Below are positions 8,314-34,993 of a stretch of DNA of 42,350 bases, piece by piece. The notes under the pieces are model-generated. The model made no database searches. It was not told the DNA's origin and worked only from the letters and a program-made list of their open reading frames with translations. Each line of letters starts with the position of its first letter. Position 1 is the stretch's first letter. Position numbers and translations under genes: made by a program. Where the stretch lies: positions 1 to 42,350 of the IMG/VR virus record IMGVR_UViG_3300044627_002210; one strand, given 5' to 3'. The stretch comes from a virus.

Positions 8314-8637
8314 ATGACTCCAGTATACATTATCATCAACGAATACGGAAACAAGCATTACTACAAGGACAAAGCAATGACGATACGCCATCGTGAAGAC
8401 GGTCCTGCGGTTGAACTTGCCGATGGGAGTAAAGCTTGGTACTCTAATGGAAAACGCCATCGTGAAGATGGTCCTGCGGTTGAATACCCCGATGGACATA
8501 AAGTTTGGTATCTCGACGGAGTGAAACACGGTGAACAAGAATTCCTTCTTAAAACCGCTAAAGAAATCGTCTTGACGATGGACGAGATTGCATCTAAGTT
8601 TGGCATTGAAGTAAGCAAGCTAAAGATCTCTAAGTAA
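8314..8637 (+). CDS. HREDGP-repeat protein, two repeats, 107 aa
   Basis: Residues 1-26 (TPVYIIINEYGNKHYYKDKAM) form a leader, then come two repeats of the type RHREDGPAVE-x-DG-x-K-WY-x-NG, a MORN-2-like beta-hairpin repeat widespread in phages. The end is a separate module (LTMDEIASKFGIEVSKLKI) that looks like a short helix-turn-helix. No box lies directly upstream; the leader is a copied gene tail. Confidence 0.85.
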   Translation: MTPVYIIINEYGNKHYYKDKAMTIRHREDGPAVELADGSKAWYSNGKRHREDGPAVEYPDGHKVWYLDGVKHGEQEFLLKTAKEIVLTMDEIASKFGIEVSKLKISK

Positions 8638-8656
8638 CGAACACGAAACGAACATT

Positions 8657-9118
8657 ATGACTCCAGTATACATTATCATCAACGAATACGGAAACAAGCA
8701 TTACTACAAGGACAAAGCAATGACGATACGCCATCGTGAAGACGGTCCTGCGGTTGAACTTGCCGATGGGAGTAAAGCTTGGTACTCTAATGGAAAACGC
8801 CATCGTGAAGATGGTCCTGCGGTTGAATACCCCGATGGACATAAAGTTTGGTACTCTAATGGAAAACGCCATCGTGAAGACGGTCCTGCGGTTGAATATG
8901 CCGGTGGAGATAAATCTTGGTACGTCGATGGAAAACGCCATCGTGAAGACGGTCCTGCTATTGAATTTGCCGATGGACATAAAGAATGGTACGTCAATGG
9001 AGTGGAACACGATGAACAAGAATTCCTCAAGCGAACTGCTCCAGAAATCGTCTTGACGATGGACGAGATTGCATCTAAGTTTGGGATTGATGTTAGCAAG
9101 TTGAAGATCTCTAAGTAA
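8657..9118 (+). CDS. HREDGP-repeat protein, four repeats, 153 aa
   Basis: Same leader and C-terminal tail as the gene at 8314, with four RHREDGP units instead of two. Unit three differs most (GGDKSWYVDG). The tail reads FGIDVSKLKI. Preceded by a copy of the first gene's 3' flank and no box, so it is probably read from the promoter at 8238 or not strongly expressed. Confidence 0.85.
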   Translation: MTPVYIIINEYGNKHYYKDKAMTIRHREDGPAVELADGSKAWYSNGKRHREDGPAVEYPDGHKVWYSNGKRHREDGPAVEYAGGDKSWYVDGKRHREDGPAIEFADGHKEWYVNGVEHDEQEFLKRTAPEIVLTMDEIASKFGIDVSKLKISK

Positions 9119-9148
9119 GGAACACGAAACGAACACGAAACGAACATT

Positions 9149-9319
9149 ATGACTCCAGTATACATTAACATCGGCAAATATGGCGACAAGCATTACTACA
9201 AGGACAAAGCAATGACGATACGCCATCGTGAGGATGCTTGGAAAATAGCTGAAAAAGAAGGTCAGATCAGACGAAAAGTATCTTCTGATGGAACGCTCTA
9301 CAGTGAGAACCTTTATTAA
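9149..9319 (+). CDS. Chimeric ORF: HREDGP leader fused to the end of the 7965 gene
   Basis: A 56-residue frame that starts like the repeat genes (TPVYINIGKYGDKHYYKDKAMTIR) and at HRED switches to the last 29 residues of the gene at 7965 (AWKIAEKEGQIRRK...YSENLY). The switch lies in the short shared text tcgtgaRga. It stays in frame. The leader has diverged (ININIGKYGD-type changes). Probably a by-product of recombination; whether it is translated is unknown. Confidence 0.7.
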   Translation: MTPVYINIGKYGDKHYYKDKAMTIRHREDAWKIAEKEGQIRRKVSSDGTLYSENLY

Positions 9320-14656: not shown

Positions 14657-15040
14657 ATGAATAACGAACAACAAATAAACGAAGCCCTTCAATGGCTACA
14701 ATCGACGGGTCAATCTTTGGTTGACTTCACTGGCGAACAATCTCCTCTCTACTGTCAGGAAGTTCTCAATTGGACATTCTATGGTAATATGATAACGGTA
14801 ATCATCGGCATCATTTGGATTATTGGTTCTCTGTTTCTAATCAAACCGTGTATTAAAGCTTGGAATTTTGAATATGGTTATTGCAACAAAGGAGCAGCAA
14901 TTTCTATATCTACCTCTTTGGCGTTGGTGATTGCAGGTGCATTCATACCAATTACTATTATGAGTGTTGTTGATATGGTTAAAATTAAGGTTGCACCACG
15001 AATGGTATTGGTTGAGCATTTTCAACAAAAATTAAAGTAA
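14657..15040 (+). CDS. Small membrane protein, two TM segments, 127 aa
   Basis: Box hexamer TACAAT at 14645-14650. Amphipathic N-terminal helix, then hydrophobic segments at about residues 45-65 and 80-105 separated by a basic, aromatic loop. Inner-membrane location expected. Role unknown. The stop shares one base with the next ATG. Confidence 0.75.
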   Translation: MNNEQQINEALQWLQSTGQSLVDFTGEQSPLYCQEVLNWTFYGNMITVIIGIIWIIGSLFLIKPCIKAWNFEYGYCNKGAAISISTSLALVIAGAFIPITIMSVVDMVKIKVAPRMVLVEHFQQKLK

Positions 15041-15502: not shown

Positions 15503-15714
15503 AATTTTCCAATGGAGCAACGGTGTGGAAAATCTTAGACACACAGCAGAGTCGCTTGAAGTATCTCTGGATTAGTTTATCAGGCAAGAAAGAAGGAAAG
15601 ACGAAACCCTTCCTCCTGACGCATCGAGTAGCCAGTCGTGGTGAAAGCCAGATATGTTGAGTAGATTGTGGGCATGATCAGCCTAGAGTGGGGGTAAGAC
15701 CCACTTGCTCCACC
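15503..15714 (+). ncRNA. Candidate structured RNA with tRNA-like 3' end
   Basis: GGAGCAA 15514-15520 pairs with TTGCTCC 15705-15711, directly preceded by a 5-bp stem with 7-base loop (GTGGG 15688-15692, CCCAC 15700-15704), then A-CC and TTTTT. This copies the acceptor plus T-arm layout, but the T-loop GGTAAGA is not canonical. A long hairpin lies in the middle (TCAGG/CCTGA enclosing GAAGG/CCTTC). ATTTTCCA 15504-15511 can also pair with TGGAAAAT 15526-15533. Class unknown. Confidence 0.55.
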
Positions 15715-15747
15715 TTTTTAATAAATAAAACACTAACCACCGCGAAA

Positions 15748-15864
15748 ATGCGTGACCTGACGGCAAATGGAAGCTCTACCAAGTGGGGGACTGGCATTCT
15801 GCATAACGCCAATGTGGAGGCACGGGCGGACAACGCCGCACCGCCGAAGCCCCCGACTCAATAA
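15748..15864 (+). CDS. Short ORF ending in a cassette-like tail, 38 aa
   Basis: MRDLTANGSSTKWG, then the tail HNANVEARADNAAPPKPPT, which is the translation of the first repeat core. Such tails are what one gets when a truncated gene reads into a recombination site. Probably the remnant of a gene rather than a functional protein. Confidence 0.4.
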   Translation: MRDLTANGSSTKWGTGILHNANVEARADNAAPPKPPTQ

Positions 15865-15868
15865 CTAC

Positions 15869-16210
15869 ATGAAAACTACGAAATCAAAACACCCCGCCCG
15901 TTGCTCTCTCACGCCTTGTTCGTCGTCTTTGATTTTGAAACGTCGGATGCAACTCAAACGCATGGAAATCCAGATAGAGAAAAACGTCGCGTGGAATCTC
16001 GGCTACGATCCAAGCGATATCTGGCATCACGAACTACTCGACCGCCGCAACGAACTCTCACTGATCGTGGGTAAAACCGACCCCGAATGGTGGGCGATCT
16101 ACGACCGATTCCGGGACGCCGAAAACTGCAAGCGGCTGATGACCTTTCTTCCGACGAACGACCAAGCTGACCCGCTGCATGGGCGGGGGAAGACTCAACC
16201 GGAGAAATAA
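15869..16210 (+). CDS. Hypothetical protein of foreign block, 113 aa
   Basis: Start chosen at MKTTKSKHPARC; later ATGs at 15949 and 15961 are possible. The body (EIQIEKNVAWNLGYDPSDIWHHELLDRRNELSLIVG, PEWWAIYDRFRDAENCKRL) is helical. The C terminus (LPTNDQADPLHGRG) reads through the second repeat core. Unknown family. Confidence 0.65.
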   Translation: MKTTKSKHPARCSLTPCSSSLILKRRMQLKRMEIQIEKNVAWNLGYDPSDIWHHELLDRRNELSLIVGKTDPEWWAIYDRFRDAENCKRLMTFLPTNDQADPLHGRGKTQPEK

Positions 16211-16211
16211 T

Positions 16212-16538
16212 ATGCCGAATCACAGAAAACTCAGAGAAGAACAGGAAGGCCCATGCAGTTGGGTCCAGCGTCTGGTTCGCCGTTGGCGGTGGACACGCAG
16301 AGAGCGCGACATCATCCAGAACTGTGGATGCGTGACCTACTGCCCGAAGTGCCACGACATGCTCAACGATCAAGCCTACTGGCTGGCGAGCAATGGCGAC
16401 GGACTTGGAACCTACAAGTGCCGACTCTGCGGGAATGTCAGCGAGTGGCATTTCGGCATCGCTCCCGTGGCGCTGCTGATCTACTCGGCTCACACGAAGC
16501 ATACGGCGAACGATCAAGTGGAGGCACGCCGACCATGA
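16212..16538 (+). CDS. Zinc-ribbon protein of foreign block, 108 aa
   Basis: CPKC at about residue 48 and CRLC at about residue 77 make a four-Cys zinc ribbon after a basic N terminus (RLVRRWRWTRRERD). Its end, HTANDQVEARRP, is the translation of the third repeat core. Its TGA overlaps the next ATG. Function unknown. Confidence 0.7.
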   Translation: MPNHRKLREEQEGPCSWVQRLVRRWRWTRRERDIIQNCGCVTYCPKCHDMLNDQAYWLASNGDGLGTYKCRLCGNVSEWHFGIAPVALLIYSAHTKHTANDQVEARRP

Positions 16539-16810
16539 ATGCTCGAATACAGAAAGAAGCCAAACGTCTAGGTCTTGGAATCCGCCCCGGCGGGAAATAC
16601 GTTCGAGGAGGGTGGACTGACGGAATGCCCGGAAAATGGGTGTTCAGCACCTACCCGCTCGATCCGTCTGGAAACGAAAAAGAGGAGGACATGGGACACT
16701 GCGACGACAACGCCGAGGACGCCATCGAGCAGCTGGGCAAGGACGCTGAGTATTTCTTCGCTAACGTCACAACGCACGCGCCGGGAGCCAATGAGAAGCC
16801 TTTGAAATGA
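16535..16810 (+). CDS. Hypothetical protein of foreign block, 91 aa
   Basis: ATGA junction with the zinc-ribbon gene. Starts NARIQKEAKRLGLGIRPGGKY, basic, then an acidic helix (CDDNAEDAIEQLGKDAEYF). GC-rich codons. No family recognised. Confidence 0.68.
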   Translation: MNARIQKEAKRLGLGIRPGGKYVRGGWTDGMPGKWVFSTYPLDPSGNEKEEDMGHCDDNAEDAIEQLGKDAEYFFANVTTHAPGANEKPLK

Positions 16811-16889
16811 AACTGGAGAGCTAGTCTCGGTCGTGTGCCGTGGCTTGTTCTCGCTCTTCCGAATTACCAACCAACCTACAAATCACGAT

Positions 16890-17144
16890 ATGACGATACG
16901 AATCACAAAATGGAACGGACTCTGCCTCACGGCGGAAAAGAAACACCGCTGGTGCCTGAAAATATGGTGGCTGGGCAAATGGTGGGGACGCTGCGGCTTC
17001 TCATCCAGCGGGCGGGACTTCTACCACACGGATGTTAGCTACTACCATCACGGATGGACTCGGACGCGCCGGACGTGGATCGGCCCGATCATGGTCGAAG
17101 CTGAAAAGTCCCTGACGTGGGGAATCATTTCCGGAGAACAGTAA
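16890..17144 (+). CDS. Trp-rich hypothetical protein, 84 aa
   Basis: MTIRITKWNG then WCLKIWWLGKWWGRCGF and HHGWTRTRRTWIG: very rich in Trp, Arg and His. Not clearly membrane-spanning because charged residues alternate. Last gene of the foreign block. The start at 16890 avoids an odd N-terminal extension. Confidence 0.6.
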   Translation: MTIRITKWNGLCLTAEKKHRWCLKIWWLGKWWGRCGFSSSGRDFYHTDVSYYHHGWTRTRRTWIGPIMVEAEKSLTWGIISGEQ

Positions 17145-17235
17145 CTTATGACCCCCAATAAGTGTCCATAACCATGCCGGAATCAATTATGCGCTTTCCT
17201 TACTACATTCTTAAAAACTAGAACACAATAACACA

Positions 17236-27159: not shown

Positions 27160-27419
27160 CAATATCGACCAAGGTGAGGCACAGCCTCCCGCCGAAAATC
27201 TATGAATACACCTGAGACTCAACGGGAGGCTGTTGTCCTCCACCGCCTTGTTAGCGATTTGAAATCTCGCTGCAACCGACACGCGAATGGAGAGTGTATG
27301 TCGCTCGTCTGCCTCTATAACGGCGGATACGAGCACGGCACAAAACCAGACTACAATTTGGCAACATGCGAAGTCCACGAGCAGGTGGTAGCTCTCGAAT
27401 CTCTTATCGCTAACAAGCC
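27160..27419 (+). mobile_element. Insertion of about 248 bp between a promoter and its gene
   Basis: The hexamer CAATAT at 27160-27165 would place an ATG at 27172, but instead there is GC-richer DNA with a complete small gene. The original-looking gene (27420) follows. No transposase, target duplication or terminal repeats are visible, so the mechanism is open. Confidence 0.6.
27181..27233 (+). repeat. 11-bp inverted repeat around a start codon
   Basis: ACAGCCTCCCG at 27181-27191 and its exact complement at 27223-27233, with the ATG at 27202 in the loop. In RNA this would place the start codon in the loop of a stable hairpin. Confidence 0.75.
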
Positions 27420-27423
27420 ATGA
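27202..27423 (+). CDS. Inserted hypothetical gene, 73 aa
   Basis: Codon use differs from neighbours (many CTC, CGC, GTC, CGG). Cys at C-x6-C-x4-C spacing (RCNRHANGECMSLVC) and TCEVHEQ could bind zinc. Its stop overlaps the next ATG, giving translational coupling after insertion. Confidence 0.7.
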   Translation: MNTPETQREAVVLHRLVSDLKSRCNRHANGECMSLVCLYNGGYEHGTKPDYNLATCEVHEQVVALESLIANKP

Positions 27424-34429: not shown

Positions 34430-34993
34430 ATGAACACGACTGAATTTTGTAACAAATACTCCCCGAATGAGATGTGTGAGGAAGGGCGAGAATTTGCTCT
34501 AAGCCACGAAACCATGTCCCAAGTTTGGGATGCTTGTGAGGAACCAGAATGGCTTTTTTGGATGCTTGAAAAATGCAAACCTCTTGAAAAGGAACAATCA
34601 GTGAGATTGTCCATAGCATTTGCGGAAAAATGTCTTGTCAATATACCTAAAGGGGAAAATCGCCCAAAACTTGCAATTGAAGCTGCAAGGGCATGGATTG
34701 AAAACCCTTGCGAAGAAACACGGTCAGCAGCGTCAGCAGCAGCGTCAGCAGCAGCGTCAGCAGCAGCGTCAGCAGCATGGTCAGCAGCATGGTCAGCAGA
34801 GTCAGCAGCGTCAGCAGCAGCGTCAGCAGCATGGTCAGCAGCATGGTCAGCAGAGTCAGCAGCGTCAGCAGCAGCGTCAGCAGCATGGTCAGCAGAGTCA
34901 GCAGCATGGTCAACAGCACGGTCAGCAGCGTCAGCAGCAAGGTTAGAACACTGTGAGATGATACGGGAAATGATTCCCAATCCATTCCTTTAA
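34430..34993 (+). CDS. Putative immunity-type protein with long Ala/Ser/Trp repeat, 187 aa
   Basis: Hexamer TACAAT at 34418-34423. Residues 1-98 form a folded head (TTEFCNKYSPNEMCEEGREFAL...EWLFWMLEKCKP). Residues 99-170 are tandem AASA units with W or E in fixed places. The short tail reads LEHCEMIREMIP. Proteins with this head and Ala/Ser helix array are found in phages and bacteria and often labelled putative immunity protein. No partner toxin is seen. Confidence 0.78.
   Translation: MNTTEFCNKYSPNEMCEEGREFALSHETMSQVWDACEEPEWLFWMLEKCKPLEKEQSVRLSIAFAEKCLVNIPKGENRPKLAIEAARAWIENPCEETRSAASAAASAAASAAASAAWSAAWSAESAASAAASAAWSAAWSAESAASAAASAAWSAESAAWSTARSAASAARLEHCEMIREMIPNPFL
34722..34946 (+). 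repeat. Trinucleotide-based tandem repeat GTCAGCAGC
   Basis: About 25 units of GTCAGCA plus GC, GCAT or GAG variants inside the coding sequence. In the other frames the same DNA encodes Gln-rich and Ser/Val-rich ORFs, and on the reverse strand Asp/Ala and Leu/Thr ORFs, all of which are artefacts of the repeat. Confidence 0.9.

Follow-up and report, generated by a model that had tools for sequence, protein, structure and literature searches.

The window analyzed here, i.e., the whole 42,350-nt stretch of the viral record IMGVR_UViG_3300044627_002210, is very probably part of a large T4-like phage whose genome has acquired mobile integron cassettes in two places. Its phage nature is evident from the detection of the marker genes gp23, gp20, UvsX and terminase. 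One of the two places had already been described in a sequence-only reading as a G+C-rich block resembling integron gene cassettes, and much of this description holds. The G+C content of the block is approximately 53-56% compared with approximately 40-42% around it, the gene-start box AAAAACTA is absent between 15296 and 17213, and the similar C-terminal tails are present in the translations. The repeated cores had to be redefined: the short pattern as written, AACGnnCAAnnTG, has a single exact match (at 16157; 0.37 expected by chance) and is no better than chance, whereas the 20-mer core AACGNNCAAGTGGAGGCACG is better, matching with up to three mismatches at 15805 and 16509 only (0.02 expected). 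The cassette interpretation itself is supported by covariance models and by exact insert borders at the G|TT core.

attC sites and cassettes in the window

The decisive step was a search of viral contigs with the AACGNNCAAGTGGAGGCACG-type core, which returned 16 stretches. In most of them, the core proved to be the left arm of a two-arm site of approximately 85 nt, AACGnnCAAGTGGAGGCACGCCG ... CGGCGTTGCCTCGCACGCCTTGTTCGG. The sequence-only reading had seen one arm per site; the second arms lie 50-100 nt downstream, and an interpretation of the window cores as half sites only was dropped once these arms had been located. A covariance model (R1) was built from 20 such sites, including those of the window at 15803-15924, 16155-16281 and 16761-16853 and leaving out the one at 27162-27256. 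Because R1 was trained partly on the window, two further models were built against circularity: R2, trained exclusively on sites of other phages, and R3, trained exclusively on 94 sites from the integron arrays of Opitutales bacteria, sites that were themselves gathered and aligned with R1.

An attC covariance search, which had been proposed as a check of the cassette interpretation, was positive with all three models: they agree on four complete sites in the 42 kb, all on the plus strand. With E-values that are rough according to the tool's own note, these are the attC of cassette 1 (15803-15924; R1 49.0 bits, R2 8.2e-7, R3 9e-7), that of cassette 2 (16155-16281; R1 53.1 bits, R2 3.5e-7, R3 47.7 bits and 2e-10), that of cassette 4 (16761-16853; R1 54.2 bits, R2 5.8e-7, R3 just 21 bits and 0.0021) and that of a single cassette (27162-27256; R1 35.8 bits, R2 1.3e-5, R3 2.3e-6). 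Scanning of the 42 kb gave no further match below an E-value of 1 with R2 or of 3 with R3, and neither R1 nor R3 matches the half site of cassette 3 (16507-16531, plus strand), which is a AACGNNCAAGTGGAGGCACG pattern match at 16509 with a left arm only, the second arm being lost. The complete site at 16761 and the cassette at 27162, the latter outside the block, are absent from the sequence-only reading.

The sites of the window form two-arm imperfect hairpins with 7-bp R boxes and, like those of the other phages, carry extrahelical T and G on the 3' arm of the plus strand; they are genuine sites of the attC type. The extrahelical bases T12'' and G20'' set the strand choice by IntI (PMC2727003), and the plus strand of the attC of cassette 1 is the recombinogenic 'bottom' strand. 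When DNA hairpin folds were compared with those of shuffled sequences, the site at 27162 was the only one of the individual sites to be unusual (z -3.9). In place of AAC, the left box of this site reads ATC, a phage-derived sequence that insertion into a G|ATATTG target would be expected to leave.

A cassette unit consists of attC plus gene and is bordered at both ends by AA|C on the plus strand, which reads G|TT on the minus strand. The array, located on the plus strand, is preceded by the remnant of an older cassette gene (15725-15806), 5'-truncated (..PDGKWKLYQVGDWHSA*), whose terminal box GCATAA|C forms the left border of the variable insert; up to this junction, the remnant is 99% identical in a sister phage. 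Of the five small ORFs reported earlier, four are intact and the fifth is this remnant. Cassette 1 (15807-16158, 352 bp) comprises its attC and then an ORF of 113 aa (15869-16210), and its own-end box GACGAAC is the exact complement of the right-arm box GTTCGTC. In cassette 2 (16159-16510, 352 bp), the attC is followed by an ORF for a zinc-ribbon-like protein of 108 aa (16212-16538) that ends in ..NDQVEARRP, and the boxes GGCGAAC/GTTCGCC are again exactly complementary. Cassette 3 (16511-16764, 254 bp), recognized from the sequence and the pattern match, contains an ORF of 91 aa (16535-16810). Cassette 4 (16765-17138, 374 bp) has its attC and then an ORF of 84 aa (16890-17144) whose stop codon falls in the phage flank; its own-end box GGAGAAC is complementary to GTTCTCG at 6/7 positions. 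The right junction AA|C and the phage flank common to the sister phage follow at 17137-17212. At the second place, a single cassette of 248 bp (27166-27413, plus strand) lies directly 3' of a gene-start box and consists of attC and then an ORF of 73 aa (27202-27423), with exactly complementary boxes CGCTAAC/GTTAGCG.

Across the terminal units of the phage arrays, which were called with thresholds (box mismatches, a 1500-bp limit) set while viewing the data, the right-arm 7-mer box is nearly always exactly complemented at the unit's own 3' end, and a box match on the other side is just occasional. Complementarity of the right-arm 7-mer to the unit's own far end is needed to rebuild attC in a free circle. 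One phage unit (L065, 13121) is without a matching end.

The cassette ORFs of the window match no Pfam family; that of cassette 2 matches phrog_4005, a phage family of unknown function (6e-8). No Rfam family was found in the block or in the leader, an element of array-carrying sister phages that lies between the gene at 15040 and the array (15513-15712, plus strand). The leader is a candidate structured RNA of approximately 200 nt with the complementary ends TGGAGCA...TGCTCCA, and its fold does not differ significantly from that of shuffled sequences (z -1.17). In array-less relatives (L034, L035; L025/L026), it is replaced by a tRNA-like sequence that is not called by ARAGORN. A search with the leader pattern TGGCATTCTGCATAAC returned mostly unrelated phages. 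Elsewhere in the window, tandem paralogues with HREDGPAVE repeats are present in three adjacent copies of unequal length (8314-9319), over which contig alignments vary, and an ORF at 34430-34993 bears a long AASAAWSAE repeat tract.

Insert borders and exchange between phages

Two lines of relatives carry the neighbouring genes. Compared with L024/L033 (a 207,489-bp contig), 808 of 817 positions are identical up to the left GCATAAC (approximately 99%), and the BLASTN alignment restarts exactly at the right junction AACAGTAACTT, from which 254 of 267 positions are identical (approximately 95%). The segments enclosed by these junctions (15806/15807 and 17138/17139 in the window, both at AA|C) show no similarity: the window has 1332 bp with four genes, and L024/L033 has approximately 0.6 kb containing a different pair of genes and a different pair of attC sites. 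Judged by these alignments, the DNA from 15806/15807 to 17138/17139 is a precise insert. Leader and array are both missing from L025/L026.

Further comparisons gave the same kind of border. L043 represents the empty site of the single cassette: its flanks match, and exactly 27166-27413 is absent. Cassette 2, with its zinc-ribbon gene, is also found in two other phages (L130 and L131) at approximately 90% DNA identity, and this homology begins and stops at AA|C, border to border. Cassette borders at the G|TT core are seen in the sister and empty-site comparisons and in the box complementarity. Mobility is seen in both directions, as different cassettes in one place and as the same cassette in different places. 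At the level of genome comparison, the exactness of the borders, the swap and absence in relatives and the recurrence of cassette 2 in other phages are all evident.

Neither the block nor cassette 2 had a relative in the known phage collection, which gave weak, unrelated matches only with attC as the query. No relative of cassette 2 was found in 159 Opitutales genomes either, in a search without positive control that shows little. The phage set used here was reached via one core pattern and its relatives and is not representative of phage cassettes as a whole. L128 and L129 carry the zinc-ribbon gene of cassette 2 with the attC left arm gone and the right-arm peptide EQEGPCxW retained; from its sequence, it is apparently a cassette gene that has settled into the phage genome. 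Cassette arrays in L065, L066, L068 and L061 are located within approximately 3.5 kb of a RuvC-like gene (..GIDPGxxGGIAW..).

The exchange between sister phages might also be explained by a single capture, in a host integron or in an ancestor, followed by transfer from phage to phage by homologous recombination only and not by IntI. The sister flanks, being approximately 99% and 95% identical, are sufficient for such exchange, and the phages have no integrase. However, L130 and L131 hold the same cassette with exact borders between unrelated flanks, L043 retains the exact empty site of the single cassette, and right-arm and own-end boxes remain complementary, so we consider this explanation unlikely. 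Points against our own interpretation are that the action of IntI and the host are inferred, and that the array swap could be homologous recombination in identical flanks, in which case the borders would record earlier site-specific events. A chimaeric assembly, or a phage contig to which bacterial DNA has been joined, would fit the G+C-rich, bacterial-like composition of the block, but the same junctions recur in four other contigs (L002, L004, L005 and L014) from different metagenome data sets and a variant array occupies the same place in L024/L032, which leaves a negligible chance of an artifact.

Inverted orientation and phage targets

In the textbook integron layout, a gene is followed by attC at its 3' end, an arrangement that is usual and not strictly required. 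The phage units depart from it. In them, attC is placed 5' of the gene with which it moves, rather than following each gene as the sequence-only reading had proposed. This orientation is established by three independent observations: the extrahelical T and G on the gene strand, the insert borders at AA|C on the gene strand in arrays that start with attC and end with a gene, and the single cassettes, which consist of attC plus gene. By a longest-ORF strand count that is crude and was scored non-blind in both sets, 38 of 53 phage cassettes have their longest ORF on the same strand as the attC hairpin, and 15 of 53 have it the other way. Among bacterial cassettes sharing this site type, the longest ORF is on the opposite strand in 77 of 87, further bacterial arrays being alike. 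Moreover, the start codon is inside attC in 34 of the 53 phage units.

Ordinary cassettes in standard orientation, with attC at the gene 3' end, would explain why gene ends overlap an attC arm, and the internal boxes match in either reading. Such an arrangement is nevertheless already contradicted, and we regard it as extremely improbable: the extrahelical bases are on the plus-strand hairpin, the array opens with attC and closes with a gene and no attC, the sister breakpoints coincide with AA|C and leave attC 1 within the exchanged segment, single cassettes are attC plus gene, and bacterial arrays as well as the phage TJE1 are arranged oppositely to the window. It is also very unlikely that the attC-like hairpins are RNA elements only (terminators or translation starts) that have not been recombined in the phage. 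The frequent position of the start codon in the loop (34/53 units) and the gene of L128 and L129, which lacks the attC left arm and keeps the right-arm peptide, would suit such a role, but the exactness of the insert borders, the array swaps, the existence of empty sites and the presence of the same cassette in other phages all speak against it.

For the mobile cassettes that we favor, targets can be read from the junctions on the minus strand: G|TTATGC for the array, G|ATATTG for 27162 and G|TTATTG for a single cassette in G017. The latter two adjoin the gene-start box TTAAAAACTA..ACAAT(AAC). Its AAAAACTA part occurs in 87 copies on the plus strand and 0 on the minus strand of the whole window, and the box is located 22 or 25 nt before an ATG in 75 cases; the full box, AAAAACTA..(A/T)(A)CAAT, is probably a promoter or translation signal of the phage. 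Degenerate cores, GTTAT or GATAT, are present on the minus strand at the three targets read from junctions. The phage sequences GCATAACAG and CAATATC and the box ACAATAAC are putative attG sites.

We propose that the IntI of an infected Verrucomicrobiota host would integrate cassettes into the phage, first at attG-like phage targets (cores GTTAT/GATAT), in two cases at the gene-start box, and that later cassettes would insert next to one another. The folded plus strand of attC would present the extrahelical T and G for strand choice by IntI, and the orientation of the target would place only cassettes with the gene inverted relative to attC in the sense of phage transcription. A cassette inserted in this inverted sense at a gene-start box would be read in line with the box, which suggests that inversion is kept by selection for phage expression; the cassettes would presumably be expressed from the upstream box.

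Recombinase, host, cargo and related systems

In profile searches, neither a tyrosine recombinase nor IntI was detected in the window and its 177-kb and 207-kb relatives. TIGR02249 and PF00589 have no match in G000, G001 and G017, and a complete integron, with intI and attI in cis, was not found there. Among 20 viral records searched, tyrosine-recombinase pieces occur only in G006. An integron integrase above the curated cut-off was detected in 10 of 22 genomes and records searched, all ten of them bacterial, and is close to the array in G189 (where IntI lies at C1:1305581-1306498), G139 and G127. Since the phages have no recombinase, the enzyme must come from the host, and the cassettes are likely moved by host IntI acting in trans. 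In the genome sample, R1 has matches in 33 of 177 Opitutales genomes compared with 1 of 78 of a Myxococcota class, and it scores as high as 69 bits in other members of the phylum to which Opitutales belong. A scan of bacterial genomes with the phage-type core pattern returned 2 contigs only, compared with 16 viral ones; the Opitutales contig obtained in this way has the standard orientation, with attC on the minus strand and genes on the plus strand. We infer that the host belongs to Verrucomicrobiota.

CALINs have been described in the virulent Tetrasphaera phage TJE1, Polaribacter phage P12002L and Pseudoalteromonas phage PH101, and five of six tested attC sites recombined with attI1 by IntI1 (Qi et al. 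2023, PMC9892861). Those phages resemble the present ones in having methyltransferase cargo and attC clusters without an integrase; the sections of that paper covered here make no mention of inverted genes, swaps between sister phages, empty sites or the sharing of cassettes by different phages. In TJE1, however, a reading by eye places attC 3' of the genes, in the textbook layout and opposite to the present phages, and neither TJE1 nor P12002L matches the Verrucomicrobiota-type covariance models. Chromosomal Verrucomicrobiota integrons (Opitutales G189, G139 and G127) have the same attC type, as R1 and R3 match both, but differ in having intI nearby and genes on the strand opposite the attC hairpin. 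Cassette insertions at attG, outside the integron and at targets that are neither attI nor attC, have been reported (Loot et al. 2024, Nat Microbiol, as cited in PMC12901181). From that citation, the present insertions are likewise outside an integron, but they lie in phage genomes, two of them at the gene-start box. Judged against the open literature, outside which an earlier report may exist, the systematic inversion, the start codons in attC, the sister swaps and empty sites, the sharing between phages and the Verrucomicrobiota type are apparently new.

Cargo with recognizable function comprises a C5 cytosine methylase in L062 (7e-42), Mom in L061 (6.5e-40) and Lar within a cassette of G017 (2.5e-6), all three on the inverted strand, in addition to a C5 cytosine methylase, recognized by its sequence, in L008 and a weaker Lar-like protein. 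On these matches, the recognizable cassette cargo is counter-restriction, and the cassettes of the window itself may have a role in counter-defence.

Previously, only a few static clusters of integron cassettes were known from virulent phages. In the present phages, the cassettes appear to make up a working exchange system, in which arrays differ between near-identical phages, empty sites survive and a cassette is present in several phages. By the usual rule, attC strand choice serves cassette expression from the integron promoter; the inverted genes violate this rule and suggest that the phage's own transcription determines which cassettes persist. We give roughly even chances to a broader picture, in which Verrucomicrobiota phages would have a common pool of inverted cassettes, distinct from that of the bacteria; attC would double as recombination site and 5' coding start; gene-start boxes would capture cassettes and provide them with a built-in promoter; and the host integrase would let virulent phages trade counter-restriction genes. 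Host integrons as suppliers of counter-defence genes to phages are a directly testable proposal.
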